A stretch of 64,000 nucleotides of DNA, from NCBI GenBank assembly GCA_033439255.1, contig JAVRDV010000017.1:372001-436000 (forward strand), written 5' to 3'. Below the pieces are notes generated by a model. The model did no database searches and was not told where the DNA came from. It was given only the letters and a program-made list of their open reading frames with translations. Made by a program: the position numbers and the translations under genes. This document shows, piece by piece, positions 1,522 through 24,790 of this stretch; positions within the stretch are counted from its first letter, which is position 1, and each line of letters opens with the position of its first letter. This stretch comes from Hericium rajendrae (Eukaryota; Basidiomycota; Agaricomycetes; Russulales; Hericiaceae).

Positions 1522-1530
1522 TATATAAGG
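1522..1530 (+). promoter_or_regulatory. TATA box of repeat module copy 1
   Basis: TATATAAGG follows a conserved CCCGGGATTCG block and precedes a C/T-rich leader. The same box is found at 5836-5844 and 9745-9753. A plausible splice donor (AAG then GTAACC) follows about 120 bp downstream. Confidence 0.5.
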
Positions 1531-1650
1531 CTCGTGCGATGCGCGTTGCCTCTTGCTCTTTAACTCCCACTGTCTCTTGCCACGTCGACGCCTTCATCGA
1601 CGTGCTTTGCTTGCTCGTCATCATTCTTTACTTTGCTCGTTGTCTTTAAG

Positions 1651-2345: not shown

Positions 2346-2610
2346 CACATTTATCTGATGAGCCAATGACCTCCCACCACATCCAGTGGGCCAGACAATG
2401 ACCCATTGGTACATAGTGAACCAGGCCAGTCAATGATAAATGGACACTACAGATTAAATGACCAGAGGTCAGACAATGACTTATTGGTACATAAGGGGAG
2501 CAGGCCTGTCATTGAGTAACTGCTACATTGTGACCGACGGGCCGGCGTGGGATGACCATTCAACAATGGCACTTTGTCAAGCTCGCCTGGCATTACCTCA
2601 ATGCACTAAG
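2345..2610 (-). repeat. Dispersed repeat, inverted partner of 38703-38960
   Basis: The segment carries repeated CAATGAC/GGCC words and is the reverse complement, with few changes, of 38703-38960, including the blocks reading TGCCAGGCGAACCTGACAAAG and CTCAATGACAGGCCTG on the other copy. It belongs to the same family as the large minisatellite at 38.96-40.32 kb. Confidence 0.7.
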
Positions 2611-3440: not shown

Positions 3441-3631
3441 CCAAGCAGGGGTGGAAACGGTGCCGAGGTGGGGTGGGCACAGTGCCGAGCCAAGCCGATG
3501 TAGTAGGCATGCTAAGCACGCGGGAGTGTGTAGCGTATGGCCCGGTAAGTGGCCCCAAGTGAGATTATAATATGAGTGTATAATAATGAGCATGGTAAGT
3601 TGCCAGCCAGCAAGTTGCTGGGTGTATTGGA

Positions 3632-3970
3632 ATGCACTCTTGGCAATTTGCTGGTCCACAAAATTATTCAAGGGCTGATACTGGTGCGCCGGCACCTGCT
3701 GCATCATCTTCTCAAGTAGGCACCGTGTCGACTGACGGGACGGGGTCAAAGGCCGGCAATGGTGCCGAGAGAGAAACAACCATGCAGGATGAAACCTTGG
3801 GTGGCGAAGGCTTGGATCAGGCTGGCACGGATGGCCTGGGTGAGGGAGACGGTCCAGGTGAGGGAGACAGTCCGGGTGACTGCGAAAAAGAGGGGAACGG
3901 CGAAGGAGAGGGAGATGGCAAAGGAGAGGGAGATGGTGAAGGACATCTGAAAAATCTAATTTTTATATAG
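3632..3970 (+). other. Gly/Glu/Asp-rich open segment, possible terminal exon of module transcript
   Basis: An open frame of about 112 codons whose last third is a GEGDGEGD-type run. A shorter related segment lies at 7520-7646, where TTTTTCAG directly precedes an acidic, then Arg/Lys-rich stretch ending in a TGA, and both are followed by the same ATCTGAGAAATCT-like sequence. The position fits a last exon of a transcript from the TATATAAGG promoter upstream. I recognise no domain; it could equally be a fortuitous frame in repeat DNA. Confidence 0.3.
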
Positions 3971-4265
3971 CAAAAAGTCAAGCTATGAGTCCTATAGGTA
4001 AGCTATGGAGTCTATGACTTTGACTTGTCAAGCTATATAGAGCTATGAGAGCTATTATAGCATTCATAGCAGATAGTGTAAAATATATAGCTTATATAGC
4101 TAGTACTGTCAAATACATAGAGCTATTATACTTAATAAGGGGAGCTATAGCTCCTATCATTACTATGCTGAGCCAGATAGGCATCAAAGACTTGAAATCC
4201 AAAATTTTACACTTCAATTGTCAATAGTACTACAAATCAGTCTACTACATTACAGAAGCTACTAA
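3965..4265. repeat. AGCTAT field, module tail
   Basis: Dense AGCTAT/ATAGCT words, ending in a CTACTAC-type block that also ends the equivalent field at about 7940. No gene is visible. Confidence 0.5.
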
Positions 4266-5950
4266 CTATTTCGAACGGACCTCGCACACGCACAACAGCA
4301 TGCAGTGACGACATAGCGCCTGTCATCGCAGCCGGCCATGCGTAGCCGACGATGTGCGTGTGCCGTCGCCAGCATGCGTGGCGCCATGCGCACAGATGGC
4401 TGCCTGCCACTGTGCGTGCACTGTCGCCAGTGCGCAGGGGCTTGCGCGCATAGACAAGCTGCCCGCAGCTGCTCTGCACGCATGCGTGCGCAACTGCGCT
4501 GGTCACACCATGCGTGGGTGTGTGCATGCACTGGCGCGGCTGTGCGCATGCAGTCGCCGGCCTGCGTGGCCCTGCGTCACAGACCAGGCCGTGCGTGGCA
4601 GCCTACGCACTGGCAGGCCCATGCACGGCTGCCTCGCTGTCACTGCGTACACACACTAGCACGGTCGCCTGCAGCCGTGTGGGGGTGAGGCGGTACCATA
4701 TGCGACAGCTCACACACTGGCGGGACTGTGCACGGCTGCCCATGCCGTGCGTGCATGGTTGCACTGACACGGTCATCCATGGCTGTGTGCGGGCGGGGCG
4801 GGGCAGCGAGAAAGTGCGGGGCCACAGGGCGGGGCCACGAGGTGGCAAGAAAGCAGGGACGGGGCCACAAGGAGGTGAGGGCGGGGCCGCAAGAAGGAGG
4901 ATGGGGCCGCGAGGAGGCAAGGAGGCAAGGACGGGGCTGTGGATGACTGCATGCACATTGGCAAGGCCGGGCGCAGCGGTCTGCATTGCATATGTGCGCA
5001 TACGCACTGATGCGGTCGTCTGCAGTTGTGCGCATGCAGTCGCCGGCGTACGTGGACCCGCTCGTGCAAGCGGGGTCGTGCGCACGCAATCGCCGGCATG
5101 TATGGCCATGCAGACATGGCTGAGGGCACGTGGGGATGCGGGCGTGGGCGCGGTTTGGGGCGTTGAGACGAGGGTGTTGCCTGGGCGTGGTAGAGAGTGA
5201 GTGTGCATCGTACGATGCTTTGTCGAGTCTCATTGCTGTGGCAACGAGGCTCAACGTCGGTGTCATCGACGGCGTTGTCGAGGGAGATGATGGGTGCAGT
5301 GGGTCATGGGCTCGGTGCAGGGATGTGGAGGGGACAGGTTGGTCGTGAAAAGACACGAATATCGTTTGGAAAACAAACAATATTCATGTGATTAGCATAG
5401 AGACAAAAAAGAAAGGACTAATGTACTTACCTAGAGCCCTCGGCACCTCTGCGAGCCCTCCTAACCATCGAAAGATGTCGTCCGTTGCATGCAGAAAGTG
5501 ATTGAGGCAGGGAAGAGAGAGAACGGACTCAGAGGGAGTGATGGACAAAGCTGATTGAATGCACCAAGTCGCACGTCGAGTGCCACAGCAAGCATTCGAC
5601 TTGCGTGGCTTGCGATTTCGAATTCAACAAATTAAATCAAATGTTATAAAATCCAAAAAAAAATGTAGCACATATAAAATTCCTGTATCTAGACTATGAA
5701 TGAGCCAGATACATGTCTACATTACTGTATGTTCTTGAGCAACCTATCTATCTTAGTGAGATCTAAAACAGTAGCCTCTGCCACGGCGCCCGGCAACCAC
5801 CGGCCAGCTGCAATTTGGGCTCCAATGCGCTCACCTATATAAGGCATGCACGACGTGCATCTTCTCTTTCTTCCCTACCATTACCATCTTCCGTCTTTTG
5901 TCGTTCTCTCATCTCTTTGTCTTCAACTCCTTATGTTCGGTAAGTCCTTA
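4266..5950. repeat. Repeat module copy 2
   Basis: A GC-rich block (4270-5200; TGCGTG/GCATGC words, both strands open) is followed by a hairpin at 5225-5252 (arms GAGTCTCATTGC and GCAACGAGGCTC), a second hairpin at 5357-5385, a minus-strand donor signature near 5430, and a TATATAAGG promoter at 5836. The order matches copies 1 and 3. No gene is called. Confidence 0.6.
5836..5844 (+). promoter_or_regulatory. TATA box of repeat module copy 2
   Basis: TATATAAGG with a pyrimidine-rich leader downstream, at the same position relative to the module hairpin as in copies 1 and 3. Several GTAAGT donor-like words follow (near 5940, 6040 and 6130), suggesting an intron-rich leader. Confidence 0.5.
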
Positions 5951-6460
5951 TGTTGTTATGTTGTTGACTAATACTTATACTTATGTATCATCTTTATAGA
6001 CTTGGAAAATTTTCACTTTTTCTTCTCTTTGACAAAGGTAAGTCTTATATTTTGTTCATTCTTTTTGTTGTTTACTTACAACAAGTTGTTGCCTTTAAAG
6101 GTTTCATTTTCGCTTTTTATTGTCTTTGCAGAGTAAGTTTTTGTGTTGTATCTTTTATCTAATCTAGTCTAACTTATGTTTATAACTAAGACTCTCTAAC
6201 TCTATAGTATAGTGTAGTTTTGTTGTATATTAGTATCTCTTGATAAAATGATATATGTTTAAATTTTCGATGTTTTGTTTATCTAAGATATAATAATTGT
6301 GAAGGGTATATAACAATTCAAATAATTCAAATGTTTTTATAGCATTGTTAGGCAATATATTACTTAGAGATAATATAGAATAGATAGCAATCCTATTAAG
6401 CTAGGTATGATATGATAATAGACATATATAGTATAAGTGACATAGTCTTTATAGCTGTTA
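5951..6460. repeat. AT-rich module tail, copy 2, 5' part
   Basis: T-rich, GTAAGT-containing DNA passing into an AGCTAT field at about 6390. The field is interrupted by the element at 6463-7322 and resumes at 7325. No gene is visible. Confidence 0.45.
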
Positions 6461-6462
6461 TA

Positions 6463-7322
6463 CAGTGGAGTGCAAAAAGAATGCACATCCCTCCATCATA
6501 GTCTGTCTCATATTTCTCAATGTTCTGCTTATAAATCATAATTTAAATAATTCTACAATTATTCTCTACATCTCTTCTATCATACTCAATAAGAGTTGAA
6601 AACAAAGCACAAAAAAATGCATGCTACAAAAGTGTGCAAAGTTGGTCAGTTTGGATGACAAATTGTAATTTTTGTTCTTCAATGAAAAAACAATGACTTG
6701 CTCTGAAAATATTTGAGAACACTCTTAGAGATCCTAAGAGCACATGATAAATGTTTGAAGTTATTTTACTAAGCTCAACTGTTAGCTCAACTGTCTGCAA
6801 TTCCTTCTACAAAGTGATCACTTTTTTCTAAACAGTGCTATCTTGCACACAAAATGTTATAAATTGGTCTTTTACATGTTGCAGATGTCAAGTCAAGCCT
6901 AACATTGCATCCTTTTGGCATAGGCATTATATTGTGGTACACCAATCTATGTTAGTTCTTATACAGATTGGCAAAATAATCACTTTGTAGAAGTTATTGC
7001 TGAAGTTTGAGCTTGGTAAAATAACTTCAAACAATTATTCTGTGTTCTTAGAATCTCTGAGAGTGTTCTCAAATATTTTCAGAGCAAGTCATTGTTTTTT
7101 CATTGAAGAACAAAAATTACAATTTGTCATCCAAACTGACCAACTTTGCACACTTTTGTAGCATGCATTTTTTTGTGCTTTGTTTTCAACTCTTATTGAG
7201 TATGATAGAAGAGATGTAGAGAATAATTGTAAAATTATTTAAATTATGATTTATAAGCAGAACATTGAGAAATATGAGACAGGCTATGATGGAGGGATGT
7301 GCATTCTTTTTGCACTCCACTG
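6463..7322. mobile_element. 860-bp inverted-repeat element (Tc1/mariner-like termini) with TA duplication
   Basis: The ends are CAGTGGAGTGCAAAAAG and its complement, flanked on both sides by TA (6461-6462 and 7323-7324). The two halves match as inverted repeats for about 340 bp each, leaving a short centre near 6790-6990. A TA duplication and CAGTGGAGTGC-type termini are typical of Tc1/mariner elements. There is no transposase frame, so this is non-autonomous (MITE-like). Arm divergence is low, for example TCTGTCTCATA against TATGAGACAGG, suggesting fairly recent origin. It sits inside the AGCTAT field of module copy 2. Confidence 0.85.
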
Positions 7323-7324
7323 TA

Positions 7325-7945
7325 GCTACCATAGCTATGTCTTATACTCTGATAGCTATCATAGCTATCATAGCAGGGCATAGCAATCCTATCCAACTAC
7401 ATAGCTTATCATAGACTGCTCTGTAACTATGAAGTTCTATATATAAAAGAGGATTGCTATGGAGCTATGACTTCTATATAGATTATATAGAGCAATATAG
7501 TACTGGTACATTTTTCAGATGGAGAGGGAGATGGTGGGGGCAAGGGAGACGGCAAGCGTGAGCGCAATCGCGAGAAAGAGCCACAGCAGATGCCCGAGGC
7601 TCGTCGCAAGAAGACGGACGAGAAGACAGCCTACGAGTTCATCTGAGAAATCTGTTTTATATATAGCTGCAGGTTATATTATGGGTGCTATGGCTGAGCT
7701 ATCAGTGCTATGAAGTTTACTTATTCACCTATGTAGAGCTATAAGAGCTTCTATAGCTTCCATAGCTAGTAGTGTCAATTATATAATGCTATCATAGCTT
7801 CCATAGCTAGCAGTTTGAGATATATAGCACTATCACACTTAGTAAGATAAGCTATGACTGCTATTAGTACTACTAATACTATGTCAAGTCAACTAGGTAC
7901 TGAGGTATTCAATATTCAAAGTCAAAATTGATTATATTCAATATA
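7325..7945. repeat. AGCTAT field, copy 2, 3' part
   Basis: Continuation of the field interrupted at 6463. It includes the acidic/basic open segment at 7520-7646 described with the 3632-3970 entry, then more AGCTAT words, ending in a CTACTACTAC block. Nothing else is visible. Confidence 0.45.
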
Positions 7946-9744
7946 ACTACTACTACAAACAAGTACGCTACAATAGGAATACCGCAGGCATGCACAGTCG
8001 CGCACGATGTGACAGGTGGGGCCGTGCGCAGACACGCGTGCACTGGCAGTGTACATGCACGCGAGGCGCGGCGTGATGCGGCAGCCATGCACGAGGCGCG
8101 GCGACACGTGTGAGAGGTGCATGGGGGAGGGCGAGGGACGACGAGGCGTCGGTGGGTGGCTAGAGGCACCGCAAGGCGCTCGGGGCAGCAGGGCACGCGC
8201 GAGGCGCGGGGCGTGTGTATAAGGCACAGGGTCGGGCAGGAGGCATCGAAGGGGCAAGGTGAGGGCCAGTGACGGGTCCGTGCACAAGGCACGGGAGGCA
8301 GGCGTGCGGGGCGTGCACGACGTGGCAAACCCGTGCGCTACATGGGATGCCCACGCGTCAGAGGCAAGAGGCGCTGGGAACGTGTGAGGCACGGCGGGCG
8401 TGCGGGAGACGTCAGCATATGACGGGCCCATGAGCAACGTGTCGGCAGGCCGCACGAGACTCGCGGGGTGGCGCAAGGCCCGCAGTGGGTGCATAGGCTC
8501 GCAGGGCATGCGGGAAGTGTCAGGAGCGGGCTCTATGCACGAGGCGCGGGAGACATGCACGACGCCGCAGGCCCGTGAGTGACGCGGAAGGCCCGCATGC
8601 CGGAATCGCAAGGCGCGGGGACGTGCGTGAGGTATGGAGGCATGCGCGAGGCGAAGAGGGCGACGTGTGCGAGTCGTTGAGCTGCTGCGAGCCCGTGCAC
8701 GACGTAGCAAGCCTGCGCACGCAGGATAGCGGCGCAGGGCATGAGATGCAGGGCCCGCGTGCAAGGCATCGGGGTGCGGCGCGCCTGGGTGTTGAACGGG
8801 TGTGTTGGGGCATGGAGTGTGAGAGCGGGACGTTGCATGCATGCGCGCGCATTGTGCGCATGTCCGGGGTGTCGCGTGCGTGTCCGAGGCGAGGTGGGTT
8901 GCGCAAGTGCGGCGAGTGCGCAGGATGTGGCTCTTGGGCGCCGCAGTCGTTCGACATGCTGGTGATACGGCGAGAACGTTGAGGCATGGCTTGTGTGGTG
9001 AGAGCGAAGGGAGTCTCGTTGCCACGGCAACGAGACTCTAGGCACGTGGTGGGCAGTGACGTGGCGAGTGTGCGCACGTCGTTGATGGCACACAGACAGT
9101 GCGGAATGACGTCCGTACATCGTCCGTGGCCGTGTGCGCAAAAGAGGGGATCTGGTTTAGGCGTGGGGTGTTGGGGTTGCACACGCAGGCAGCAGAGGGC
9201 CGCGACGTCGTTGGGAGCGCGGAGGGGGGCAGTTGAAGGCGAAGGGGGAGACGGGGATGCGGGACAGGGATTGGGAGGCGGGGAAAGAACGAGTGTCGCT
9301 TGAAAACGAGCGACACCCTATGTTAGTACGAAAATATCACAAAAAAGCACCTTTTTTACTTACCTGCCACCCTCTCCCGGCTACAAACCCATTCCTACTG
9401 TGTTGATGCTCGATAGATTGACGAAGAAAAGGAAGGGACAGAGGAAACACGGAGGAGCAGAAGGGTGAGTGGTGATGGGAAGCAAGTCTCGACGCATTAA
9501 GTCAGTGCTGCAGCCACCGAATATGCGAAGAGACTCAACAAATCAAGTAAAACAGCTAGAAATACGAAAAAAAGACGTGAACTATATATCGTGTATTGAA
9601 GTACAATACATGAGCTACATTAGTGACAAGCATACTAGATTTTACTAGACGGCAGAGTCAAGACAACAAAATCTAATACCTAGTCTCTGACACGGCGCTC
9701 AGCAACGCCCGGTAGCCATGATTCTCGGCTTCGCCCGGGATTCG

Positions 9745-9753
9745 TATATAAGG
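9745..9753 (+). promoter_or_regulatory. TATA box of repeat module copy 3
   Basis: TATATAAGG, with a leader identical in layout to copy 1 until element 1 interrupts it about 60 bp downstream. Confidence 0.5.
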
Positions 9754-9804
9754 CTCGCACGACGCGCGTTACCTCTTGCTCTTAACCCCCACCACATCTT
9801 GCCC

Positions 9805-9812
9805 ACCAGCTG
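9805..9812. other. Candidate target-site duplication of element 1, left copy
   Basis: ACCAGCTG, repeated exactly at 22701-22708 on the far side of the element. Confidence 0.65.
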
Positions 9813-10313
9813 CATATCATAGGATTAAGCCATCCCATAAGTTGTAAGGGGCTATGGATCAATCTGACCCATGAGTTGTAGGGGGGTTATAGAGGGCATA
9901 GAAATGGAATCTGATACCTTATACATGTAGATACTACTACCATCTGATAGGAATCCAATCCAATCCAATCCGAGTTTGTGCAGAAAAATATCAGGCATAT
10001 GAGGTTAGGACAACCATCAGATTAATCCATTCAAATCTGATGTAATTTGAGTCAATCCTAACTACATACTTAGCATATCGGTTTCAATCCAATCCAATCC
10101 CATCCTTCCCTCAAATCTCAATCCCATGCTCAGATACATAAACCATAAACAATCCATCCGACCCGATCCATGTAGCAATCCGATGGCATGTAATCTTATC
10201 CATACACAATCCACCTTAAGTCTTATCTATCCACCAGTATTGAAATCCTCTTCGGTCTCATTCACCTATGCATAAGGAATCGGTCATCGAATCTGTTGTA
10301 ATCCTAGCAGTAC
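9813..10313. repeat. Left TIR of element 1
   Basis: Matches the reverse complement of 22207-22700 through long blocks such as CCCATGAGTTGTAGGGGGGT and GTGCAGAAAAATATCAGGCA. It contains short tandem AATCC runs (near 9957 and 10086), mirrored as GGATT runs in the right TIR. The transposase stop codon at 10284-10286 lies within it. Confidence 0.85.
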
Positions 10314-13300
10314 ACGTACCTTCAGTTCTTTTGCCTTATCAAGAGCACTCGTATGGAATGAAGCTGCATCTTTAGCCAATTCCCCATACATTGAGCTGTG
10401 CTTGTGCGCGTATGCTGCTGCACCACGCTCCTTCGCCTTCGATGCCAAAGCACTCCAGGCCACGCTCATTGCCGTATGGGAGCATTTAGTGTTGGTAAAC
10501 TCCTGATCGGTTATGTCGATCTCTTCTCGCCAGCGGTGGCAATCTGCCCGGTCGCAGAACCACTTCACACGTTCACCTGTTCAAGTCAATATATAGAGTG
10601 AAACAAAAGAAAATTATACGTACTTTCCATACTCCACTCTGCTTGCTCCTCCTCAGTCAGTGCGGATGGACCAACCACTGTCCAAAACCAAGGATCTTGC
10701 TTTCCCGCATCCCCTGGGTATATGATCAGGACAAGTGACTTATAATGGACATTGCACTTACCTGTCCGTCGAGGTTGAGTAATGTCCTTCATCCAAAGGT
10801 CCTCGTTCTTTAAAGGCTGCAGTACGTGATCATCTTCGGCCATACCCAAACGTACCAAAGCCGCACGAGCACGACGATACTTATCTGCCACGCTTACTTG
10901 GTCACGTTTCAGGTCACGAAGAAAAGCCTGAGCTCGTGTTGTCGGCCCCTGATTGAAGATGTTGCTTTTCTTGAACTTCAGGTTATAGTTGAACATCTTG
11001 ATGGCATGCCGGACATCTCGAAGGGTGTCATGGGCTTGACCAATCCGCAGCCCGCGCTCTATCACAACCACATCATCCAAGCCCTGGGCCTTCCTCATAG
11101 GTTCGTTGAATGATGATGGCAGCAGTAGCTTGATGTTTTCGGGCTCGTCGTCTTCGTCAACAACGAGCATGCGGTGGAGAGCAGGAAATAACATTAATTG
11201 ACGTGACCGCCATGTATCAAGCTCATTCCGAAATTTGAGATGACCAACTTCCAAACGTTCCTGTTCCCCAGGCGTACGTCCTTTGATAGATGCCAATGTC
11301 TGAAGACGAGATCTGCAAAGCATTAGAAACAGGAAAATACCCGCATGACCGATACACTCACTGTTCTGCCTCCATACGCAACCCGTCATTGATAACAGAA
11401 ACCCATCCCGCAGTGCCCTGCTTGCTCAACATCTGCACAGTCTCATCTTGAAGTAGTTCCTGAAGTTTGGAGAACTGTGTTGGTGGTCCTGAACAGGTAT
11501 AAGGGTCACTTCATTGCGCATTGACGGGTAACATGGACCCACCGTGTTTCGCCTTGGACACATAAATGCTTGTTACTTTTCCATTCACGACGACCGGCTT
11601 GCAGTCCATGGCGGACCAATCAGCAATTAAATCTGGTCCATGTCGTGCACACAGTGCGTCAAACGCACTACTTGCCCGACGATACATGGCAACCGCATTT
11701 GTATGATGTTTAAAAAGCAAGCGAGCTGTCATATAAATTCTATTTAATATGTATCCATTATTATGGTGTCAAGACTCACTCATCGAGATGACCTTCTGCC
11801 AATTCCAATAGCCATGAAAATCATCTAAAATATCATGACGATGACCTGCGTTCATCTCTTTTGTGCTTCCCGCAGTCTGGTTTCCTTCTGCCCACGCTGT
11901 TTCAATCGTCTCGCCAAATGTCCTGCCGACATGGGGTGTGGTATTGAATGAGTATTGCAGCTGACAGTCTTCGATGTGTCCCATGATATGCAGCTTGGGC
12001 ACCAGCCCTTTGATTCGAGCGGCGATGTCCTTCATTTCAGGGAAATGTGTTTCCACTCGACTCTGGAACTTTACTTCGTACTGGCAAAATATGTCGTAGC
12101 TGAATTTGATATAGGGAACGTGTGTGGACTCGGTCAACGCAGACATAAGTGCATAGTCAGTATTGCAGAATCTGCGGCGCGAGAATATTAGCATCCAGAA
12201 TCTGATCTCAGTGACGCGGACCTCGTACCTTTCACCTTTCTGCAAGTCAACCATGCCCTGAGGGCAGAACAAACCATGCCGCACGCACTGGATGGCATCC
12301 ACCCCACTCACGGTTGTATGTTTGAACTTGAGAAGGTTTTGTAATCGCACAACATTGAGCCGGGCACAAGTAGATCTCTGTACATATGTCAGTGTTACGA
12401 GTTTGGAACATGGTCATTAGACTGACTTCATCCTCGGTTGCTATTCCCATTTTTTTCAGGTAATCTTTATATCCGCTCCGCTCCACGAAGTATGCGTTGC
12501 CTTTGAGCAACTCCACGTCATCGGGATCGTCGACCTTGATCTTGCGTTGTAGCCTGAAGTTACCATCGGCGGACAGAAATAGGGTATACCTATGCCTGCG
12601 CAAGAGACAAATTAGCACAGTCCATACATGCAAATATGAGATACGAACATATCTTCGGGTGAGATCTTCTCTAACTCGTCCAAGGACACGTTGACACCAG
12701 GCTCAATGCATGCAGGACATCTAACTGCGTACGAGCTGCGCCGTCGAAATGTCAAAACATCATCCATCCCGTGGGCTTGCCCTGCCCGGCGAATCATGGC
12801 AAGAGCGCGCCAAACGCGCCCCACCCGCTGAAACTCCCGACGACGATCCTAACAACGGGTCAGGAACTAGAAAGGTCAATCTCTAATTGTTGTATCTTAC
12901 CGGAACGTTCTGTGGGAATACATTGTCGGTGTGCCGTTGCAACGCAGCATAATGATCGTACACCGACTTCTTTGAAGCAAGCGTGTGGAGGTGGAAATCG
13001 TCCAGGACATGGAAGGTGAAGGCCGTCTGAGGTAGATCCATGGTAGCAGGAAACAGACGGTGCCGCAATAGTTGAAAAGGTTCTGAAGGCGCATCACGGC
13101 AGCAACAAAACTCAATTGCGGACTGATGAATACCCCCCACATCTACGACCACCATAGAACGGCCTACAGAGTTCAAGGCACGGTTCGGACAGCGCTGGCC
13201 ATGATGCCCCAGGCTAATGATAAACCCTACGTCGTTCAGCGAAGACCGATCGAAAAAATGACCATTCCACTTCTGAATTCTGTGGAACGGATGATGTCGG

Positions 13301-13749
13301 TGACTTGCTTTGATGCATTGTCCGCAAGATGGCCGGCACTGCCAACAGTCAAGGCATCGATAGACTGCTGCAGCTGCGTCCCGGTGACAGAGGCAGTCCT
13401 CTTCCACAGCCGGGTCAAATTCGAGACCAATGATCGTGTCCTGAATGCGGGGCATGCTGTCAATGAACGCCTTCATCAACATGCTCGCGCCCTGATCCAT
13501 GGAGTCAGGCTTTTATGACGGAACGAATGGCGATGGACGTACCTGCGGCCGCTTTGACTCCTTTTTCGACGAGCTCTCCAAGAAGTCAGGTGCCGGAATC
13601 GCTGGCGCAGGCGTTGTCTTCGTAACTCTCTGCTTTCTGGGGGATACGACCTGATGGTAGGTCGTTCGGGCGCCGTGATTGCGACTGAAGTTCAGCCCAA
13701 TCTCGATTTCGTTGTCTTCATCCGAGTCGCTATCAATGCAACCAGTCAC
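10284..13749 (-). CDS. KDZ transposase with CxC2 cysteine cluster (element 1)
   Basis: Cut-and-paste transposase of the KDZ superfamily, about 1,000 residues over roughly ten exons with ~50-bp introns; exon 1 ends at 13543 and a 51-bp intron follows. The N-terminus is acidic (SDSDED), then a CxC2 zinc-binding cluster (CLCH, RCLDCW, CGQC, HRHHPFHRIQKW) at about residues 85-150. The RNase H-like core shows SADGNFRL, SYDIFCQY and RTFGETIE, which align with the three acidic catalytic positions of the family, plus VPKLHIMGH and the EMNAGHRHDIL helix. The C-terminal part has the usual LRIGQAHDTLRDVR helix and a PWFWTVVG block, ending in a coiled coil. I found no stop or frameshift in the exons. The start codon is unresolved: no ATG opens the first exon frame (GTG at 13749), so an upstream exon is likely. 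Confidence 0.85.
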
Positions 13750-13849
13750 ACGGGGTCATTTAGACATCGGGATAGAATGCGGAAAGCAGCTCAAAAGTGA
13801 GATATTGCAATAGGATGGGAAGGGGCTGCAACACAGCACAGTACAGGCA

Positions 13850-13856
13850 TTTTATA
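13850..13856 (-). promoter_or_regulatory. TATA box upstream of element 1 transposase
   Basis: TATAAAA on the minus strand, about 100 bp upstream of the first recognisable codon of the transposase. Confidence 0.45.
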
Positions 13857-14205
13857 ATATGGGAATAGATAGAGATCCTGGCGGGATGGAAAAGCGAGGA
13901 AAACGCAACAATACCCGTATGTCAATGCATCCGCCACCTAGCTATTGCACCATCATTATGTGGCCGCAGCGAGAGTGGCCACAACGAGGTGACGCGACTT
14001 GATTTGACGCGACTTGACTTGACGCAACGCGACGACGGTTGTGGCTACGGCATGTGGACCCGCAGATCTCGGTCATTTTCGGTGACTTGTGGACTTAGTA
14101 ACAATGATTTAGTACAGCACAATCGAAATCGAGATGAGACATACCTTCATACGACCGCCAGTCACTTGGGCTTTTCGGGCGAGTGCTCTAGTGGCGGCAG
14201 GATCT

Positions 14206-15293
14206 TCAACGAAGCAAAAAAGCTGAGACCAAGATATTAGGCCGGGAGTATGGGGTTGTGCCAATCAGCAGATCCTCGCGGCGGACAGACATTGCCTGAC
14301 CGCAAGGGAGTCCACTGAAATGACGTAGAGTCGAATCCGGGTGGAGTGTAGTCAAGCAAAAGGAATATGAAACCAAAGGGGTAACGAAACGAGTATGTAA
14401 AAAAGTGCATCCACCCCTACACAGCGTACAGCAAGTCGTGCTCACGAATACCGCGGAGGGTTGGAGCGACAGGTCTGCTATACGCCAGGGCTTCAACATG
14501 AAAAGAAAAAAAAAGCCGAAGCCAAGATATTAGGCCGGAAGAGTGGGGTTGTGCCAATCAGCAGATCCTTGCGACGGACAAACGTTGCCTGACCGCAAGG
14601 GAGTCCACTGAAATGGCGAAGAGTCGGGTCCGGGGAGCGGGTGGGGAGCAAACAGTGTACCTAATATGCCAGTCAGAAGCAAAAAAAAATCAATACTCAC
14701 CTGTATCGAGCACAACGATCGTCTGCGCACGAGCTCCTGGCAATTGATGAAGTCGTTGACACGTACACGCACTGACGGAACTGACAGTCCCGCAACCAAC
14801 CCGCAACTGCCCGGACAGTGGCTTGCTAGTTGCTTATGTCACCATTCTCACGCCTTCGCCTCCCAACCAAACCACACCAACTCTGCCTCCGTGGCAACCA
14901 GCATACTCGAGCGAGAGCTGCGAGTCTCTCTCAAGGTACAGTACCGGTAAGCATATTTATCTCACTCTCTCCATTTCCGTTTGACTTCTTTTTCAGACTC
15001 ATGTCGTGTTTTGTTCCCATTCCTTCCCCGGACCCGACTCTTTGCCATTTCAGTGGACTCCCTTGCGGTCAGGCAACGTTTGTCCGCCGCAAGGATCTGC
15101 TGATTGGCACAACCCCACTCTCCCGGCCTAATATCTTGGCCTCGGCTTTTTTTTTCTTTCGTGTTGAAGCCCTGGCGTATAGCAGACCTGTCGCTCCAAC
15201 CCTCTGCGGTATTCGTGAGCACGACTTGCTGTACGCTGTGTAGGGGTGGATGCACCTTTTTTACATACTCGTTTCGTTACCCCTTTGGTTTCC
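14206..15293. repeat. Inverted repeat cluster upstream of cargo gene B
   Basis: A ~290-bp unit occurs in minus orientation at 14206-14500, partially again at about 14505-14650, and in plus orientation at about 15015-15293. Shared blocks include GTGCCAATCAGCAGATCC, CTGACCGCAAGGGAGTCCAC and TACACAGCGTACAGCAAGTC. The plus copy ends 27 bp before the ATG of gene B, so it supplies the leader or promoter of that gene. The matching frames on both strands are consequences of the repeat, not genes. 13860-14205 shows no gene. Confidence 0.75.
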
Positions 15294-15319
15294 GTACCCC
15301 TGTCATTTCCACCTGGACA

Positions 15320-17381
15320 ATGGCCTCTTCTCGTCCTGCTAAGGTGCGTTCCCTATTCCATTTGGTAGCATGGATATAACATATAATACAACTTTGTTTT
15401 CGTAGGTCTTTTCCTTTCCGTACTCGTCCTGGACACCCCTGCAATCATCCAATGAAGTTATTGCCGCCGCAAATACACGTATGATCCCTGTGCCCTTGGA
15501 CACGTCCGCCACACCTCAACTTCAGCTAGATGGGTTATGGGGAGGATATGAGTGGATGCGCCTACCTCAAGTGTTCGATGTGTCGGCCCCCTACCTAGCC
15601 TATATCCCTGTCGTATTTCTTAATTCAGCCGAACGTCATGCAGTTCTGGGTCGGGCCGTTTCTAAAGAGCTGTGGATCTCACACCCTGAAGATCATCAAA
15701 AACACGTTGCCGAATCCTCCGTCCTCGCTATCTTTCGTCAAGAATGGGAATGGGCCAGCGAAATGACGAGGCGGATCTTTCCCATCGTCCAGGCTACAGC
15801 AGGGATGGAACACATCGCGCTGCCCCACAATGCATGCTCGCGAGCTCTAGATTGCTACGAGATGCTCAAGAACGGTGTCCGAGCCTGGCGCGAATTTGTT
15901 GTGGTTTTCCGTCACCTGCAGCGCGCTCTTCTGGAGCTTGTTGCCTTCGAGGAGTGGTGGTCCGACTGCCAAGTGCCGGAATCTATACGGATGGAGAGTC
16001 TCACTGTTCGGGAGCACCGCGGTAAAACCAGAGGTGTTTATGCACCAGACCTTGTAGTGTACCTTGGTTTGGCCAAGCTGGGTGTATCTGCTTATATCAT
16101 TCTCAAGGCCGATGAATGGATACTAGACTCGGCGAGAATAGTCCAAATGGCTCCACGCGACGTTTGATGCAAGTTGGCTCCATGGCCTGAAGCAACGTTC
16201 AAGCATAATGGACCTCATTGGTGGTACCCTCCCCTTGTGAAGGACGCACGGAATTTTGAGTCTGCAGCGAGGGGATGCGCTCCTTGTGATGACCAATTCA
16301 ACCCAACGGATGAATATAAGGGAGTTCTCAACAAGCGAGAGCGAACGTCCATCGGTATGTTTTTACAAGTCTTGATGCTTTCTGTTGCTTATTGATGTCT
16401 TCAGCGCAGTCACGACATCCTAAGCCAGACATCAAACATAACAAATGGCGGCGCTGGTACAACACATCTGACCCACCCTCATGGATGCGTCGTCCGGTCG
16501 AGATCTATCGCAACGCGATGTATATGGTGGATCCTACCACTATCGCAGATGCAGGCACCTCACGTCTCTTCAAGGTCCCTCCCTTCCATCTCTTTTGGGG
16601 TGTCTCCCCTGACAATCAAACCACGTTTTTTCGTCACGCTCTCCTTCTACGGCATGCCCTTGACAAATTCTCTGTTCGCGGCACTCCTGGGCTCGACACG
16701 CGCGACTGGAAACGTGTTCTCGGCCACGCATACTGGAAGTTACAATGGCCTGTTCTTGGTGACAAGTTCGATCCGGCTGTAGACCCTCAGTATGACGATG
16801 AACGTTTTTGGGTATACGGCGGCAGCACCATCTTCGGACCCGATAACCAGGCTGTCCTTGCAGATCCCGATCTAGCGATCTCGACCTTGGATTGTGGCTG
16901 CGCCATGGACAATGAGGCCGCAAATGACCCTGACATCCGCTACGCATTGTTGTATCATCTTGTCCACCAGACCATCAAAGCAGATCTCGAGTTAATCCAC
17001 ACCAAATATGTCAATCTGTCATCTGCAGACCATAGTGCCGTGACATCCTCTGTCAAGATTTTCCTTGCATGGACAGATGACTGTAGCAAGGCTCTGTATG
17101 AACTCGATTGGGACAGGCGCAGAAAGTGGGTTGGGGCAATGCGGGGTTTCTTGCAGTATTGGCCTGGATTTGATCTGGAGAAATGGCAGAGGGTGATTTA
17201 TATGCGGATTGTGCGCTTGGAAAATCTGGACGAGAAGACGTTCTTGAGCGTGGAGCGACAGTTACTGACGTTCTACATCCAAAGTTTCATTAAGAATCTA
17301 GGTTATCTCCCTCCACCTTTACTTCCTGCACCTCCTACGCAAGGGATTCGCTGTCTCCGTCATCGCTCTGGTTCCAAGTAA
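15320..17381 (+). pseudogene. KDZ-associated conserved protein of unknown function (gene B), interrupted by one in-frame TGA
   Basis: Three exons: 15320-15343, an intron ending TTTTCGTAG, a long exon to about 16351, a 52-bp intron (GTATGT...TCTTCAG), and a final exon to 17381. The protein begins MASSRPAK and would be about 620 residues. Recognisable stretches include AVLGRAVSKELW, FRQEWEWASEMTRR, NGVRAWREFVVVFRHLQR and FHLFWGVSPDNQTTFFRHA; from memory, similar proteins are common beside transposons in mushroom genomes, with no known function. The frame is broken once, by TGA at 16165-16167 (after APRDV). Reading resumes at once in the same frame (APWPEATFKHNG) and runs to the end, so a single CGA-to-TGA transition would explain it. 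No intron of plausible size removes it. Confidence 0.7.
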
Positions 17382-17598
17382 CCCATTATTATCCTTGTTA
17401 CTTTTCGTCGCATTTGCTTGGACCCTGTCGTCATTGCCGTCTTAATCTGTATTTGTCATGATAATCCTTTGTTCGTGTGGCATGTTCTTTCTATCCGGTG
17501 GGCACAAGCCAAGTCAAAGCTAAGTCATTTCAGCCCCACAGGACAATAAGTTTCACTGACTGCACGCCACCTCAGATGATCTACACGAGAATCACAGT

Positions 17599-17606
17599 TA
17601 TATAAA
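17599..17606 (+). promoter_or_regulatory. TATA box of cargo gene C
   Basis: TATATAAA, 38 bp upstream of the gene C ATG at 17644. Confidence 0.5.
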
Positions 17607-17643
17607 CGCTGAATGAGCTTGGAATGAAATCTGTTGCACCGAT

Positions 17644-18935
17644 ATGCCCAGGACTCCCTCTACGCATACTAAGTCTTCTCTTGCTCCTCCATCGACCCCT
17701 TATGCGCGTACGCCCTTGGCAAGTGCACGCAAAGCGGTGCGTCTCAAGGGCCCAAGGACTCCCAAAACCGACGCGGATTCGACCTTGATAGGCACCAAGA
17801 CCGAGAAGCGGAAACAGAATGCGCTTCGAATTCGCGCTGGCCTCGAGCAATTGGCTCCCAAGCAGCCTCCAGTAGATAGAACTAGACACACCCATGCGGG
17901 CTACAGAATCACTGGCCCTTACATGTCGGTGGGAGGAGGAGATATTATGGATGCGGGACGTTGGTACCAAATTGTAAGTCCAGCCCAGCTCTTTTCTCGC
18001 CTTTGCTTACTTTTTCGCAGTGCATACCCGTCGAAGGTAGCGGCGAACGACGATGCTTTCAATGGCTGTCGCCTCGTCTATCACCAGATCTCATTCTCCG
18101 GAGTGAACCACTCACGTCATGGTGGCTCATCAGAGCCGAGCTAGAGCCCAAGGTGCGGAATCAGATTCAACCCTCCCTGGAGAGAGCTGCTACTCCCGGA
18201 AACGCACGCTCAACGGCTACTGGGCCTTCCTCATCCACGCAGGACATTAAAAGTGACTCTGACATTGAATTCTGCGATACGCTGTCTGCTACGCGTGCAA
18301 AGCTAGCACAAAGATGCCATTCTGGTCATGCTACGCTGGAGGACAACTCGATTCCTGGTTCTGATAACGAAGACGAGGTTTCTCGTGCTGAGGGAACCCG
18401 GTCAAACAAGTCAAGAGTTACGGCCCCTCGTGACATGGAGAGTGGGTCCAGTCGTGTTGTCGACGCCCCGAACGATCTCGACAACAACGTCGTCGTGACC
18501 ATCATGGCATGGTATTCCGTTCGTTTACCGCATTATCTCATTCTGTCTATGTCACTGACCCATCCTTAGGATCTCCATCCCCCCTCATATGTCGCCGTCT
18601 CTGCCCGACGGGGGAAACATCTTGTTTTGGATGATCACAAGATGGCTGTGGGGCGGATTGGCCTAGACGGACCGGTGGAACGCTATGCGGAAACCAAGCA
18701 TCAGTGGCTTTCCCTGCGCTGGGATACACCTCTGTCGGTGCGCGATGGCGCTTTAGTGCTCTTGCGCGCCCGCGGTGTCAAGACCATGATTGATTGGGCA
18801 GAGCACACACAGCATGTACTGGATGAAGGATTGCCCCGGGATCTGGGTGCACGCGGTTCGCGCACCCTGCCCGATTTCAGATCGTCGTCCCCACCTTTAC
18901 TATCGTCTCCATTGGATAGAGTATTGCGTCATTAG
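17644..18935 (+). CDS. Element 1 cargo gene C, unknown function, basic N-terminus and acidic middle
   Basis: Starts MPRTPSTHTK at 17644. Exon 1 ends at DAGRWYQI before GTAAGT; the intron ends TTTTTCGCAG near 18020. Exon 2 carries a Ser/Thr-rich region with SDSDIEFCDT and an acidic stretch (GSDNEDEVSRAEG). Exon 3 (from about 18569) reads LDDHKMAVGRIGLDGPVERY, then WDTPLSVRDGALVLLRARG, and ends at 18935. The likely second intron (GTATTCC...CATCCTTAG) does not join the flanking frames in phase, so either another splice site is used or there is a small indel near 18500-18570. I recognise no domain. Lys/Arg-rich ends and the acidic middle suggest a nuclear protein. It lies between genes B and D1 in the same orientation. 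Confidence 0.6.
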
Positions 18936-19661
18936 TAAAATCCTGTATTGTTTCGTTTACATCTGTGCATGTTTGAAAAGTCTTTACATTACATGATGAT
19001 CGGTGCATCTCCCCCCAGAGTGGCTTACTCAAACTGAATGTGTTATGTCTGGCAGATTTGCAGATGTATCATACCCTTTGTCCCGTGCAACCTCAAGACA
19101 TCCATGGATTGATTGGGATTGAGGATTGGGTCTCGGAGATTGGAACGGGTTTCACCCATCAGCGTTCCTAGCCATTGTTATCTCGGATCCACTGAAGCGC
19201 ACCATGGACGGATTGACGTTCACGACGAACAGATCTTCGGACAAAGGTGCGCGGTCATTGTTCTGCCTCGTGTGGACTGATACTTATCTATCGGACTGTC
19301 CACAGCGCTACGCCGCCTCGTGTGTGAACCGATAACCGTTAGCATCACTGACAGATACCTTATTGAACGGATCAGCATTCACGATGAACAGACAAAGGTG
19401 CGTGACTGTTGTCTTGCCTCGTGTAGACTGAATTATCTGCGAGATAGTAGTCCACAGCACCACCCGCCTCATGGACGCATTGACAGTGCCACTGACGCAA
19501 ACTTATTGAATAGAAAGCGATGGTATTTCCAATTGATTTGGGCATTGACTGCAAACAATAACCCGATGGTTTTAGATATAAAGATCGGACGGCGGTACTG
19601 TGTCCGCTTCTCTTCCGCCCTCCCACACCCCCATAAGTCCCTCAGCCAATCCTATCTTGCC
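18936..19661. other. Intergenic region with diverged tandem duplication and gene D1 promoter
   Basis: A block beginning TTCACGA(C/T)GAACAGA, containing GCCTCGTGT(G/A)GACTGA and ending AGTCCACAGC or CTGTCCACAGC occurs twice, at about 19219-19309 and 19378-19459. TATAAAG at 19577-19583 lies about 80 bp before the D1 start codon. No gene is visible. Confidence 0.5.
19577..19583 (+). promoter_or_regulatory. TATA box of gene D1
   Basis: TATAAAG, about 80 bp upstream of the ATG at 19662. Confidence 0.4.
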
Positions 19662-22023
19662 ATGGTTTCAACCAGCGTCGACGAAAGCAGTGTAGTCAAG
19701 GCTGAGACCCTTACCGCGGAGCATAAGGCCTGGCTACAGAAGTACCTCCCCGATTTTCTTGCGTTGCAAGATGGCGAACTTGCGAAGGGCGCCAAGTCTC
19801 AATGGGTGCAAGCTAACGTCCTGGACCAGTTTCAGACGAAGTTCATGGCGAACTCAAGCCGTACAGAAGTCCTGGAGGTACGCGTTTCAGTTGTATCTAT
19901 GTTGATATGACGTGACACTATATCGCACAGAAACTCAAATGCTGGTTCTACAATCAAGCCTCAAAAGCTGGCAAAACCAAGCCGATCGCAATGAAGGCCC
20001 CGAAGAAACCGAAAGCCACGAATGGCGAGTTCCTTTTCGCATTGCAGAAGCCGTCCACATCCGCGAGGAAATGCAGAACGTGCGCCTTGCGACCGGAGAA
20101 CATGACAACCTGAAGTTATGGAGGCAAGTGAGCAAGGAGCAATGGGATGCACTTACAGCTGCGGAAAAAGAAGAATGGCATGCAAAGGCCGCAGTAAAGA
20201 ACGAGGAGCACAACAACCCTCCGCCGGTCAAACATATCTATGAGTAAGTAGCATATTCATTCTTTGTTATTACACTGATTAACAGTTTTCTTCGTGTGAT
20301 AGCAACCAAGATGACATCCTTACAGCTGTCGCAACCACGCTCGCCTCGTTGGGCGGTTACGATTGGAACCAACACGGCGATGTAGCTTTCTTCGTTCAGG
20401 GCGCGTATAGGAATGCCGACGGAAGGGTGAAAACTTTCCAGTACGTGTGCTCAGTTCGTTTCAAGTGTGCAACTCTGATGAATACGTTCGGCAGTACCTC
20501 GGTCCACGACGGCCCGACCGCTTTCGGGGTGGACAAGATCGACAATTACAAGAATGGATTTCGAAAAGTGTTCAAAGAATGGGCGGAGGAGGTCCTTCCA
20601 GGTACGTACATCGGTCATGTTCCAGGCATTATGTTCACAGTGTCGCTAGTCCACCATGTTGAAGATCAAGAAGCTGTGTCGTCGCACACGGTTCAATTCG
20701 ATGAGAGTGGCCGTCCTATCCTTCCTGTGTTAGACATGGACACAATCACTTCTAAGGATCTAGCTAAGGTCATGGAGGAGGTGCTTATAGGGTTATGGGG
20801 TACGTTTTTTCATCATGAGGGTTGTCTATAGATTCTGATACTTCTCACAGCACGTTGCGAAATCCCATCCGTGTCCAAGAACGTGCCTTGGGCACTCATC
20901 AACGACCACCGGGCGGCCTTTCTAGCAAATACGGCGATCTTTCGTCGTTTCAAGAATATCCAGCCCTCTGAAATGATTCCGTGCGACGTATTTGAGTTGG
21001 CTGACCTTGTCCAAGGTGCCCCCACCGACGAGCCATTTCCTATCACGTTCCTTATTGAGAACGAGGGTCGTCAGCTGCTCGGCCTGGGTGGGGGTGATAG
21101 GCATGATATGGGAAGCTCACCACCACGCAACGTCTCACCACCACGCCCTCGCCCTGTCAATGCATCAGCATGCTCCCTGCCACCAGTGACTGCTCAGTCA
21201 CGTGTTCAACCTACAACGCAGGAGCCTCTGCCTCTTGGCAAGACTGGGACGAAACTGGCAGCTTCCTCACCACCTACGGTGCGACGTGGACCTCGTGCCC
21301 GACGTGGACGGTCTGCAAGTGAAGAGATCGCAGGGACTATGACCGACAACCAGTCGGAAGAGTTGGAAGAAGTGGATGGTTTGCTAGACTCCTCGCGCAA
21401 TCAGACCGAGGACCTGATCACGGATGAGCGGGGGGAAGGCGAGGATGAGGGGGCAGAGAACAAGGACAGCGAAGGGGGTGACGATGAAGTACAGGGTGAC
21501 CAGGGCAGTGGGGAGGAAGATGACGCTGCCGACGGTGACGAAGAGGAAGAGGAAGACGATGAAGGGAGCGACCACATCCATCAACCTAGCGTTCAACGCC
21601 CGAAGACCGTGAAGACTGCCACTCGCCCCAGCAAGGATGTCAGCACCTCTACCAGGCGTCAAGCTAAAGCAGCTGCCGCATCACCCAGTGGGCCTTCGAC
21701 AAGTACAAGGGCTGCAAAGCGTAAGGGGAAAGATGTCCAGGATATTGAACCCGCACCACCTGCAAAGAGGACACGATTATCGACGAAGACTTCAAACACG
21801 TATGTATCCTCTTTCGCAGATTTTCGGACCTATGATGATTGACATGCTTCGTTAGCAGAATGACAACCTCGAAACAACCTCGAACGGGTGCTGCAGAGAA
21901 GAAGGGCACGAAAAGTGGAAAGGTCTCTACTCCTCGCCAGTCAACACGGTAAGTGGTACTTTAGCCAATGACATTGAGTTGTGTCTGACAAATGCTCTTC
22001 CTAGGAATGTGAAAAGGGCTTGA
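19662..22023 (+). CDS. Homeodomain-like WF-x-N cargo protein (gene D1), probable frameshift
   Basis: Starts MVSTSVDESS at 19662. The N-terminal ~80 residues (WLQKYLPDFLALQ ... VLEKLKCWFYNQ) form a helical block ending in a WF-x-N signature like the recognition helix of homeodomains. The same architecture is seen in gene D2 at 52904. A middle region (ILTAVATTLASLGGYDW ... FVQGAYRN) parallels D2's LELTGRHLVRQVGKQTG ... FFVGGPD. Then come PPRPRP-rich linker, a long Glu/Asp run near 21415-21570, and Lys/Arg-rich NLS-like segments (RAAKRKGKD, PPAKRTRL). The last exons, joined by GTATGT and GTAAGT introns, end NVKRA at 22023. Between about 20000 and 20090 the frame carrying KLKCWFYNQ meets a stop while the next frame carries REEMQNVRLATGEHDNLKLW, so a frameshift or unusual splice is needed. 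Confidence 0.65.
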
Positions 22024-22206
22024 TAGCTTGTAAAGTTCGTGATACAGAGCGATGACAGCTCAAGGAGTATATCACTGTGCCTTCCTGCCATGTAGTATGT
22101 TCCATATGTGCATATGTGTATGTCGATGCAAATGCCGGGAGTCGTTATCCGATTGGATAGTGGGATTATTCATCGGTTTGTATTACTTAAATTGCCTATA
22201 TATCTG

Positions 22207-22700
22207 CTAGGATTATGACAGATTCAATTACTGATTATCCCTAGATCTAGATGGATGAGATCGGATAGGATTTCGACACCAGTAGATAGATGAGAGTGAT
22301 GGATAAGATTACATGCCATCGGATTGCTACATGGATGGGATCGGATGGATTGTTTATGGTTTATGTATTTGAGCATGGGATTGAGATTTGAGCATGGGAT
22401 TGAGATTTGAGGGAAGGATGGGATTGGATTGGATTGAAACCGATATGCTAAGTATGTAGTTAGGATTGACTCAAATTACATCGGATTTGAATGGATTAAT
22501 CTGATGGTTGTCCTAACCTCATATGCCTGATATTTTTCTGCACAAACTCGGATTGGATTGGATTGGATTCCTATCAGATGGTAGTAGTATCTACATGTAT
22601 AAGGTATCGGATTCCATTTCTATGCCCTCTATAACCCCCCTACAACTCATGGGTCAGATCGATCCATGACCCCTTACAACTTGTGGGATGGATCAAGAAA
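22207..22700. repeat. Right TIR of element 1
   Basis: Inverted partner of 9813-10313, with GGATT tandem runs near 22431 and 22550 and one extra short duplication of GAGCATGGGATTGAGATTT near 22372-22408 that is absent from the left TIR. Confidence 0.85.
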
Positions 22701-22708
22701 ACCAGCTG
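22701..22708. other. Candidate target-site duplication of element 1, right copy
   Basis: ACCAGCTG, identical to 9805-9812. Confidence 0.65.
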
Positions 22709-24790
22709 ACGTCCCTGGTTGTATCCTCATATGGACTTGTATCACAGACAGAGTGCATGTGTACTAATGTATGATGCTGCTTGCATATGCTGCAGCATAA
22801 TTATAGCATATGCTGCAGCTCAGCTCTGGAATGTACAAGAATATGGGCAATGCTACAACCTTATCCAGAAGACCATACCTGATGCCCATAACATTCCCAA
22901 GCAGCCACCTCCCATGATTCTCTACATACCTCTGACTGTCATTCTTTCAGTTGTATGCTTATATGGACTTGTATCTCAATGTACATCAGTATGTACCAAT
23001 GTACTATGCCACCTGTGTATACTGCAGCATACTTTCACCATATGTCATGGTATACTTTTACCATATACTGCAGGCAGCTGAGGACTATGCCATGGCCTAG
23101 ATCTCAAATATGCCATAGCATAGGTGGGAAATATGCTTCTAATACTTGTCTGTCAGATAAATGCCCTGTGACTCCAAACACGTAAACTTATGAAAGTCAT
23201 GTGACATTGTAGGACACAGGTGTCAGTGTGATTGCAATTATGATACCTGATCTGTTATCAACTCCAACATATCTCATGACAATACATGAGCTTGTACACA
23301 TCCAAATATCTCAGTCATTTCTGCAAGGGTGGAGCAGGCACTTTTGCAGATTGTCTCCACCGATGTGGATCTCTAGATGACAGCAGCACAATGGGTATAT
23401 CAGATATATCCTTGACTTATTCATTTTGCTAACTACCACCAAGGTGAAATTATCCCAGGATATTGGGTTGCTGAGACTCCATCAGGCTGATGGGCAGCCT
23501 GATTCATTCTGTATCCATACTCACGTATCCAAAAAATTTTACTGTGCAATGGATGCTCATGCAGACAATGACAGAGAGATTTGAAGATATGTTCTGGTGC
23601 TTCTCACACAGGTAGGTACGAGTCCTCCTTCCATTGAAACACTCAAGCTGAGTCATTCTTAGAGTGGGACATATGCCAAAGGACTGCTCACACCACCCCC
23701 AAACATTCTTGCTGCCTGTGAGAAGATCTTTGACGTGCATGTTATACTATCTTTTGATGTGTCATGAGCAGCTGTTTCTCCATGTCATGAGAATATGATG
23801 CAGTCTGCGGGATGCACATGATTGCAATGCTACTTGGGTGGCAATCGATACTGATCGCCCTTCGCTCAATTACCCACCTTCACTCAATATTGTGCCAAGT
23901 ATTGTGAGCGAACAATGACCACCCTCAATGCTACAGCTGTCTTTACTTTCAGCCCACCTGTTGGATTGCTTGCACAGGCCATACTTAATGAAATTGCATA
24001 GCAAATTCATGATGCAATGCACACAATTTCTACTCTCCCGAGCACATATGAGTACTGGTACACATTTAATGCAGTACAAAATGAACAGGTACATTGTATA
24101 AACCACAAAATACAACAGTATTTGAGGGTGTATTCAAAATGCTGTAGCTGTTATTATTGGATTCACGAAGTTTGCCAAAATGTCAATTATGATTCCTATG
24201 TTGCTATAAGATACTGAGAGCTAGCCTGAATATCACTGGCCGTGCTCTGTCCAAAGGTCAGCATCTAGAGCCTCCATAACCTCCACCATTCCTATAGGAT
24301 GATCCAATTATGAAATATGTGCTACAATGATGGATGCCCCACTTCTAGTAGTGATCAGATGATATAAGGGAGGAGCTCTGCTCGACCACATCTAGGATGG
24401 CTAGTCAATTGCACAGACCTGCACAGACCAGAAGGTGAGCACTGGTATCACACTGCTGACAGAATGTAGGGGTACTGGAGGCCAACAGCAGACCACAGCC
24501 CTGTGTACACCATCTTCTCCTGATATCTTAGGGTCTCTTGCTCTACCTGTACATGCCCATGTGAAATCTGTATGTACATATCATCTGTACCATTGACTAT
24601 TTTGCTGATGCTGCCATAGGTGCAATGTGCAGATCACATCTATCATGCATTGGATCAGGCTGTCTCTGTGGCAGAGAATCTTTCCAATTACATTGATGCA
24701 TAGTATAAGGAGTGTTCTGTCATTCTGGATGATTTGCAACATATGGAGGATTGGATAGAGGATGAAAGTGGGGCCTGGCAAAGCTTGAGT
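22709..24790. other. CpG-poor decayed repeat DNA, no intact gene
   Basis: Few CpG dinucleotides; TpG and CpA are abundant. Two related blocks (TATGGACTTGTATC ... TGCTGCAGCAT near 22731-22797 and TATGGACTTGTATC ... ACTGCAGCAT near 22962-23030) indicate an internal duplication. Coding-like stretches broken by many stops run on both strands. I cannot assign a family. Confidence 0.4.

Follow-up and report, generated by a model that had tools for sequence, protein, structure and literature searches.

Inverted KDZ transposon copies with exchanged target-site duplications in Hericium rajendrae

The literature available to us deals with KDZ elements as insertion mutagens or as vehicles for TET/JBP genes. 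Kojima has described the Kyakuja elements, which, according to the accessible part of that paper, combine a KDZ transposase with 7-bp duplications and 5'-CA..TG-3' ends (Kojima 2025, PMC12730594). The KDZ1-KDZ3 elements of Cryptococcus neoformans are 9-11 kb long and have inverted repeats of 139-241 bp, and their movement has been demonstrated (PMC12810828). The accessible text on Galileo in Drosophila buzzatii presents exchanged duplications as a recognised sign of inversion between inverted copies (PMC2775673). Here, we analysed a window of 64,000 nucleotides from Hericium rajendrae (contig JAVRDV010000017.1, hereafter C17; C17:372001-436000), in which a KDZ element, the focal copy, occupies window positions 9804-22717. 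We found that this copy and a second, inverted copy on the same contig carry exchanged 7-bp duplications, and we consider it probable that the segment between them has been inverted.

Comparison with described elements

The searched genome comprised 46.8 Mb in 19 contigs, with at least 172 KDZ matches; an abundance of KDZ genes points to a basidiomycete. Between the arms of the focal copy there is a KDZ transposase domain (PF18758, E = 2.9e-43, 148.6 bits, cut-off 26.6) and a CxC2 domain (E = 3.2e-35, 121 bits), the best-scoring CxC type; CxC1 was just below its cut-off (24.1 vs 26.9). By its KDZ domain and linked CxC cysteine cluster, the focal element is a KDZ-superfamily DNA transposon. The superfamily is also recognised by target-site duplications of 7-8 bp, and 7 bp were found in the elements on C6, C10, C3, C4, and C14 (elements are named here after their contigs). 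A search of Rfam gave 0 matches.

The focal family agrees with Kyakuja in its 7-bp duplication and its CA..TG ends (PMC12730594). However, two Kyakuja families of Laccaria are described in the accessible text as having a TET/JBP gene and no terminal inverted repeats (PMC12730594), whereas the focal element has subterminal inverted repeats of ~0.5 kb, and no Pfam match to a TET/JBP dioxygenase was found in the ten open reading frame (ORF) stretches and the further, unspliced element stretches scanned. Judged by ends and duplication, the focal element may belong to Kyakuja.

KDZ1-KDZ3 resemble the focal element in having inverted repeats. They differ from it in their duplications (8 bp in KDZ1, 4-8 bp in KDZ2 and KDZ3; 7 bp here) and in having a CxC1 rather than a CxC2 domain, and the accessible text does not mention exchanged duplications for them (PMC12810828). 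Galileo shares with the present case the long inverted repeats, the inverted copies bounding a segment that is inverted (probably so in the focal case), and the exchanged 7-bp duplications. It differs, in the available description, in belonging to the P superfamily and in its short non-autonomous copies; its inversion was confirmed against non-inverted chromosomes and by chimeric copies, whereas the focal case comes from a single assembly (PMC2775673). The Galileo-like combination, inverted copies with exchanged duplications, is present in the focal pair.

KDZ-made inversions or exchanged duplications were found in none of the literature matches listed, in a search mostly without subscription papers. 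Two sources mention inversions and KDZ or Dileera; their accessible text does not mention KDZ-made inversions with exchanged duplications (PMC9674265, PMC12510652).

Ends, exchanged duplications and empty sites

The long inverted repeats reported in an initial annotation of this DNA were confirmed. The left arm aligned to the reverse complement of the right arm with 87% identity over 502 columns including gaps, and a second alignment gave 93% over 397 columns (E = 6e-164, far above chance), with 97% across an ungapped 311-nt core. The genome search for further copies that the same annotation had proposed was made with the left repeat and the transposase region as queries, and yielded two close ones, both in reverse orientation: one on C6 (98.5% identity over 12.9 kb) and one on C17 itself (C17b; C17:321.9-347.3 kb, 99.0%).

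All three close copies begin with CACCAGCTGCATATC and finish with ACCAGCTGACGTCCCTG, and the DNA outside is unrelated. The 8-bp direct repeat ACCAGCTG, which had been taken for the target-site duplication, lies inside the element at either end in every one of them. Because it is common to three copies with different flanks, ACCAGCTG is element sequence and was rejected as the duplication; the right end lies 9 bp outside it, and the element continues there as ACGTCCCTG, an outcome of the kind that the initial annotation had named as refuting its proposal. The base preceding ACC is C in 12 of 12 CACC-type ends, which were collected without requiring the first C. This places the left end at 9804 and gives 5'-CA...TG-3' termini and a duplication of 7 bp. 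A duplication of 8 bp was rejected, the eighth base being the C of the element in these 12 ends.

Both ends were visible in nine elements. Five of them (C6, C10, C3, C4, and C14), none of which belongs to an inverted pair, have a perfect 7-bp pair of their own, and the pair is unmatched in the other four (the focal copy, C17b, C2a, and C7). Re-joining the C6 flanks by script gave an open frame of 597 amino acids across the site, which, by eye from its residues, looks like a reverse transcriptase.

The focal copy has the flanks TCTTGCC/GTTGTAT, and C17b, in the same reading orientation, has GTTGTAT/TCTTGCC, so the match is reciprocal (7/7 and 7/7). The two copies are mutually inverted with 34,491 bp between them. 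Turning this 34,491-bp segment round restores matched duplications to both.

Because the flanks lie in repeated DNA, their joins could be tested against empty sites. A join was counted as crossed where an uninterrupted genomic copy ran 20 nt or more beyond it in both directions. Re-paired join A was crossed in 35 of 45 rows at 71-84% identity (40 of 283 candidates scored). Re-paired join B, which unites a C17b flank with the focal right flank, was crossed in 27 of 33 rows (21 of 21 candidates scored); 15 of the crossing rows were nearly full length at 85-86%, and several rows overlap in tandem arrays. In the control join of the focal copy's own flanks, none of 53 rows crossed and one row reached 12 nt over (40 of 281 scored). 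C13:1610846, C12:1476697, and other sites cross re-paired join A and end at the junction in the own-flank control. In a local-sequence control, the own pairs of the focal copy and C17b gave 0 crossings and the re-paired joins 1 each.

We also looked at other close pairs. On contig 2, C2a (90.7-103.8 kb) and C2b (ending at 60.7 kb) are inverted and 30.0 kb apart, with 98.6% identity over the 1675 bp compared. CTCTCTA is common to the outer right flank of C2a and the inner flank of C2b. Of five rows for the join of these flanks, three crossed it at 93% and two were the halves themselves. Half of the C17 exchange pattern is thus seen in this pair. Related elements also lie inverted within 100 kb of each other on C9 (C9:1810871+ / 1884613-) and C5 (C5:1505329+ / 1528950-). 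The orientation was inverted in all four close pairs noticed (C17, C2, C9, and C5).

Two further observations concern the ends. The separate insertions C6:1240711 and C10:48300 have the identical 7-bp duplication GGCAACA in flanks that are otherwise apparently unrelated, a hint of target preference. A solo terminal repeat of the focal family at C9:1945150-1945618 (L015, L038) has the outer end ACCAGCTGG instead of CAGGGACGTCAGCTGG.

Origin of the exchange

The reading we regard as probable is that a KDZ cut-and-paste transposon with a conserved set of four genes came to flank, as the focal copy and C17b, a segment that was inverted, and that the copies then decayed. Two cut-and-paste insertions, A and B, would each have made a 7-bp target duplication. 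Once the inverted copies flanked the segment and it was turned, each copy would hold one duplication from A and one from B. The turn could have happened by ectopic crossover between the two inverted copies. Alternatively, a hybrid-element transposition could have inverted the segment and created the second copy in a single event. Both C17 copies would have decayed afterwards, chiefly through CpG transitions.

The present data fit crossover and hybrid-element transposition alike and do not decide between these routes. In the accessible Galileo text, hybrid-element insertion, a faulty transposition in which the ends of two copies act at the same site, is said to give a similar picture, with copies identical at birth (PMC2775673). 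The focal copy and C17b differ by 111 transitions and 0 transversions in 12.9 kb, whereas 7 transversions separate each of them from C6. Derived changes that the C17 copies share against C6 number 14 when C9 is the outgroup (window 13261-17513) and 11 when C7 is the outgroup (transposase). The two copies thus appear to be sisters, which is compatible with either mechanism.

It is possible, though we think it unlikely, that the KDZ family inverts DNA routinely, the ends of two sister copies inserting a new copy and inverting the DNA between in one step. Such hybrid-end transposition would lead to four close pairs all inverted, the exchange on C17, the half-exchange on C2, and sister status of the paired copies. 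However, sister status does not single out this mechanism, since the unlinked sisters C4 and C14 likewise have no transversions (32 transitions in 2386 bp); the C2 pair has 1 transversion in 1675 bp. A one-step route is known from other elements. Ac and Ds of maize are hAT elements. Their alternative transposition, in which the ends of two copies take part, gives one-step rearrangements including inversions according to the accessible texts, and was studied in the laboratory, unlike the focal pair (PMC8225341, PMC3744419).

Several points weigh against an inversion of the C17 segment. The own-pair control was genome-wide for the focal copy only (40 of 281 scored) and local for C17b. The second end of C2b was looked for without success, so one of two exchanges was testable in the C2 pair. 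The flanks of the element at C7:591131-608348 are unmatched (ACGTTCC / TAAGATG), and no partner was found for them. The longest identical run between the C17 copies is no mark of crossover, as 466 of 5000 shuffles reach its length; the CpG-target shuffle is approximate, and the comparison for chimerism had only one third copy. Finally, an assembler that reversed a segment between inverted 12.9-kb repeats of 99% identity would produce the same picture of exchange.

This last point leads to the best-surviving rival, a misassembly or collapsed heterozygous inversion in which neither copy lost its own duplications and the 34.5-kb stretch between them was assembled in reverse. Two inverted repeats so long and so alike are difficult for assembly, and the C2 pair is of like kind (98.6% over 1675 bp). 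However, C17b contains a nested insertion of 12.5 kb and the copies otherwise differ at 120 columns, which would let long reads separate them, and with 19 contigs for 46.8 Mb the assembly is probably a long-read one. We regard this rival as rather improbable.

Far less credible is a history without inversion, in which two unrelated deletions or imprecise events altered the flanks of both C17 copies. The C7 element, its flanks also unmatched with no partner found, would suit such a history, but the reciprocal 7/7 matches and the empty sites over both re-paired junctions would then be coincidences. The proposal of the initial annotation, a simple and possibly active insertion with ACCAGCTG as its 8-bp duplication and with dispensable cargo, is the least credible of all: ACCAGCTG does occur at both sides and genes B and D are damaged, but the repeat is internal in three close copies, 7-bp duplications fit five other elements, the own flanks were not joined in the rows scored, and the cargo is conserved.

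Genes, decay and internal repeats of the element

The coordinates of the element and of related features are given in Table 1. The transposase gene is read from the minus strand and genes B, C, and D from the plus strand; the central inverted repeat separates it from them. This order is kept in relatives on C4, C7, C10, C14, C2, C3, and C5, and partly on C9.

Table 1. Positions of the element, its parts and flanking features in the window
Feature	Position	Strand	Remarks
Whole element	9804..22717	+	12,914 bp, termini CACCAGCTG...ACGTCCCTG (5'-CA..TG-3'); limits common to three copies
Left flank 7-mer TCTTGCC	9797..9803	.	Partner on far side of C17b, not at the focal right end
Right flank 7-mer GTTGTAT	22718..22724	.	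Partner on inner side of C17b
Putatively inverted segment, portion in window	1..9803	.	Part of the 34.5-kb C17:347313-381803
Related empty site across re-paired junction A	1428..1622	+	81.5% over 195
Related empty site across re-paired junction B	22832..23044	+	75.7% over 214
Left (sub)terminal inverted repeat	9830..10310	+	87% over 502 columns with the right arm
Right (sub)terminal inverted repeat	22204..22691	-	87% over 502 columns with the left arm
Central inverted repeat, left arm, between divergent genes	14369..14654	+	Kept in relatives
Central inverted repeat, right arm	15007..15292	-	Kept in relatives
KDZ transposase gene	10284..13767	-	About ten exons, CxC2 and KDZ domains; 3' limit approximate, splice sites partly solved
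Gene B	15481..17381	+	Two exons, 50-nt intron 16355-16404; private stop 16165-16167
Gene C, rough model	17644..18935	+	No premature stop found (exons examined, three copies)
Gene D, rough multi-exon model	19662..21842	+	Private 1-nt deletion near 20033

The ratio of nonsynonymous to synonymous divergence (dN/dS) was estimated with C6 as reference against C7, C2, C10, C3, and C9; the synonymous sites behind it are saturated, with a proportion of synonymous differences (pS) of up to 0.75. We obtained 0.10-0.11 for the transposase (0.37 vs C9, a fragment of 123 codons), 0.06-0.16 for gene B, 0.10-0.19 for gene C, and 0.10-0.27 for gene D, for which the highest value is that against C10 (47 codons) and the comparison with C2 was saturated and not computable. 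One of the four comparisons with C6 gene D met an in-frame stop in it, and for C and D the gene models are rough. By these ratios, B, C, and D are under purifying selection in the diverged relatives and are best interpreted as conserved components of the element. A Pfam scan of the three gave no match above cut-off, the predicted structures of the gene B exons were too poor for use (mean predicted local distance difference test score 36), and the C-terminus of gene D is of low complexity with acidic and basic stretches.

Damage to the cargo had been proposed, and was confirmed in part. Genes B and D are broken in the focal copy; gene C showed no premature stop in those exons that were examined in the three close copies. 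A shared frameshift in gene B was considered and rejected, the change of frame being the intron. The B stop and the D deletion are private to the focal copy and absent from C6, and C17b has a different private 1-nt loss in gene B. Consequently, the notion that the cargo had been defective before it moved was rejected, and the view that it is dispensable for movement finds no support in these lesions or in the gene order and purifying selection kept in relatives.

The transposase, thought to have no stops, has TGA as codon 4 in the focal copy (window 13756-13758), and the stop is also in C17b. At this codon, C6, C7, and C2 have Arg and C9 has His. Chance alone should give about two parallel CpG hits (57 x 53 / 1606 targets; our own estimate), so the stop probably predates the pair. 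The 57 private changes of the focal copy are all transitions, 47 of them CpG to TpG, and so are the 53 of C17b, with 40 CpG to TpG. For C6, 119 of 126 changes are transitions and 71 are CpG to TpG, a class that includes changes on the stem of the pair. The divergence of the two C17 copies is thus mostly CpG decay, which suggests silencing, perhaps by methylation. Given the spectrum and the lesions, silencing and decay of the copies are more likely than recent activity. Of the complete and possibly mobile element that had been proposed, the KDZ identity, the long inverted repeats, and the extra genes stand, and its mobility is weakened.

The C17b transposase gene contains a nested KDZ-type transposon (C17:333051-345520, 12,470 bp; loci L036, L037), which lies outside the window. 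It has 0.8-kb inverted repeats of 98.5% identity and an 8-bp duplication CGACGACC, and the stretch holds another KDZ match.

At the two ends of the element, the outermost ~25 bp are not mutual inverted repeats; the subterminal repeats start ~26 bp in. For a subset of relatives, we compared the termini and the central repeats. Two types of terminus exist: the transposase end is of the CACC type in the focal lineage, C4, and C2:3272k, and of the CAGGGACG type in C7, C10, C3, C14, and C2a. C4 and C14 are sisters (transposase 98.7%, tree support 1.000 with eight sequences) with opposite terminus arrangement. A position-by-position comparison showed that at the C4 transposase end the outer ~30 bp match the other end of C14, and that from about column 560 inward the match is to the transposase end of C14. 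The simplest reading would be a crossover inside the 0.5-kb repeats that turned the interior relative to the termini. From about column 60 to 420, the C4 transposase-end repeat differs from the other three repeats compared, which are nearly identical. This divergent mid-region would require some conversion beside a single crossover. Misassembly seems less likely for such interior flips, because long reads span such short repeats.

The central inverted repeat is likewise kept in relatives. Its two arms agree at 85-95% within every one of six elements, whereas comparisons across lineages mostly gave 68-86%. Repeated conversion or a shared function would be expected to produce such a pattern.

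Elsewhere in the window, we observed two inverted 2.8-kb arms, 98% identical and ~0.4 kb apart (57957-64000), a dense array of diverged direct repeats (38952-40965), another KDZ transposase match (47567-47947), and an integrase-core domain, rva_4 (35459-36223).

If the inversion is confirmed, exchanged duplications would be a simple and countable mark of KDZ-driven inversions in fungal assemblies. Likewise, if confirmed, the conserved genes B, C, and D would be candidate parts of the transposition machinery and not passengers.

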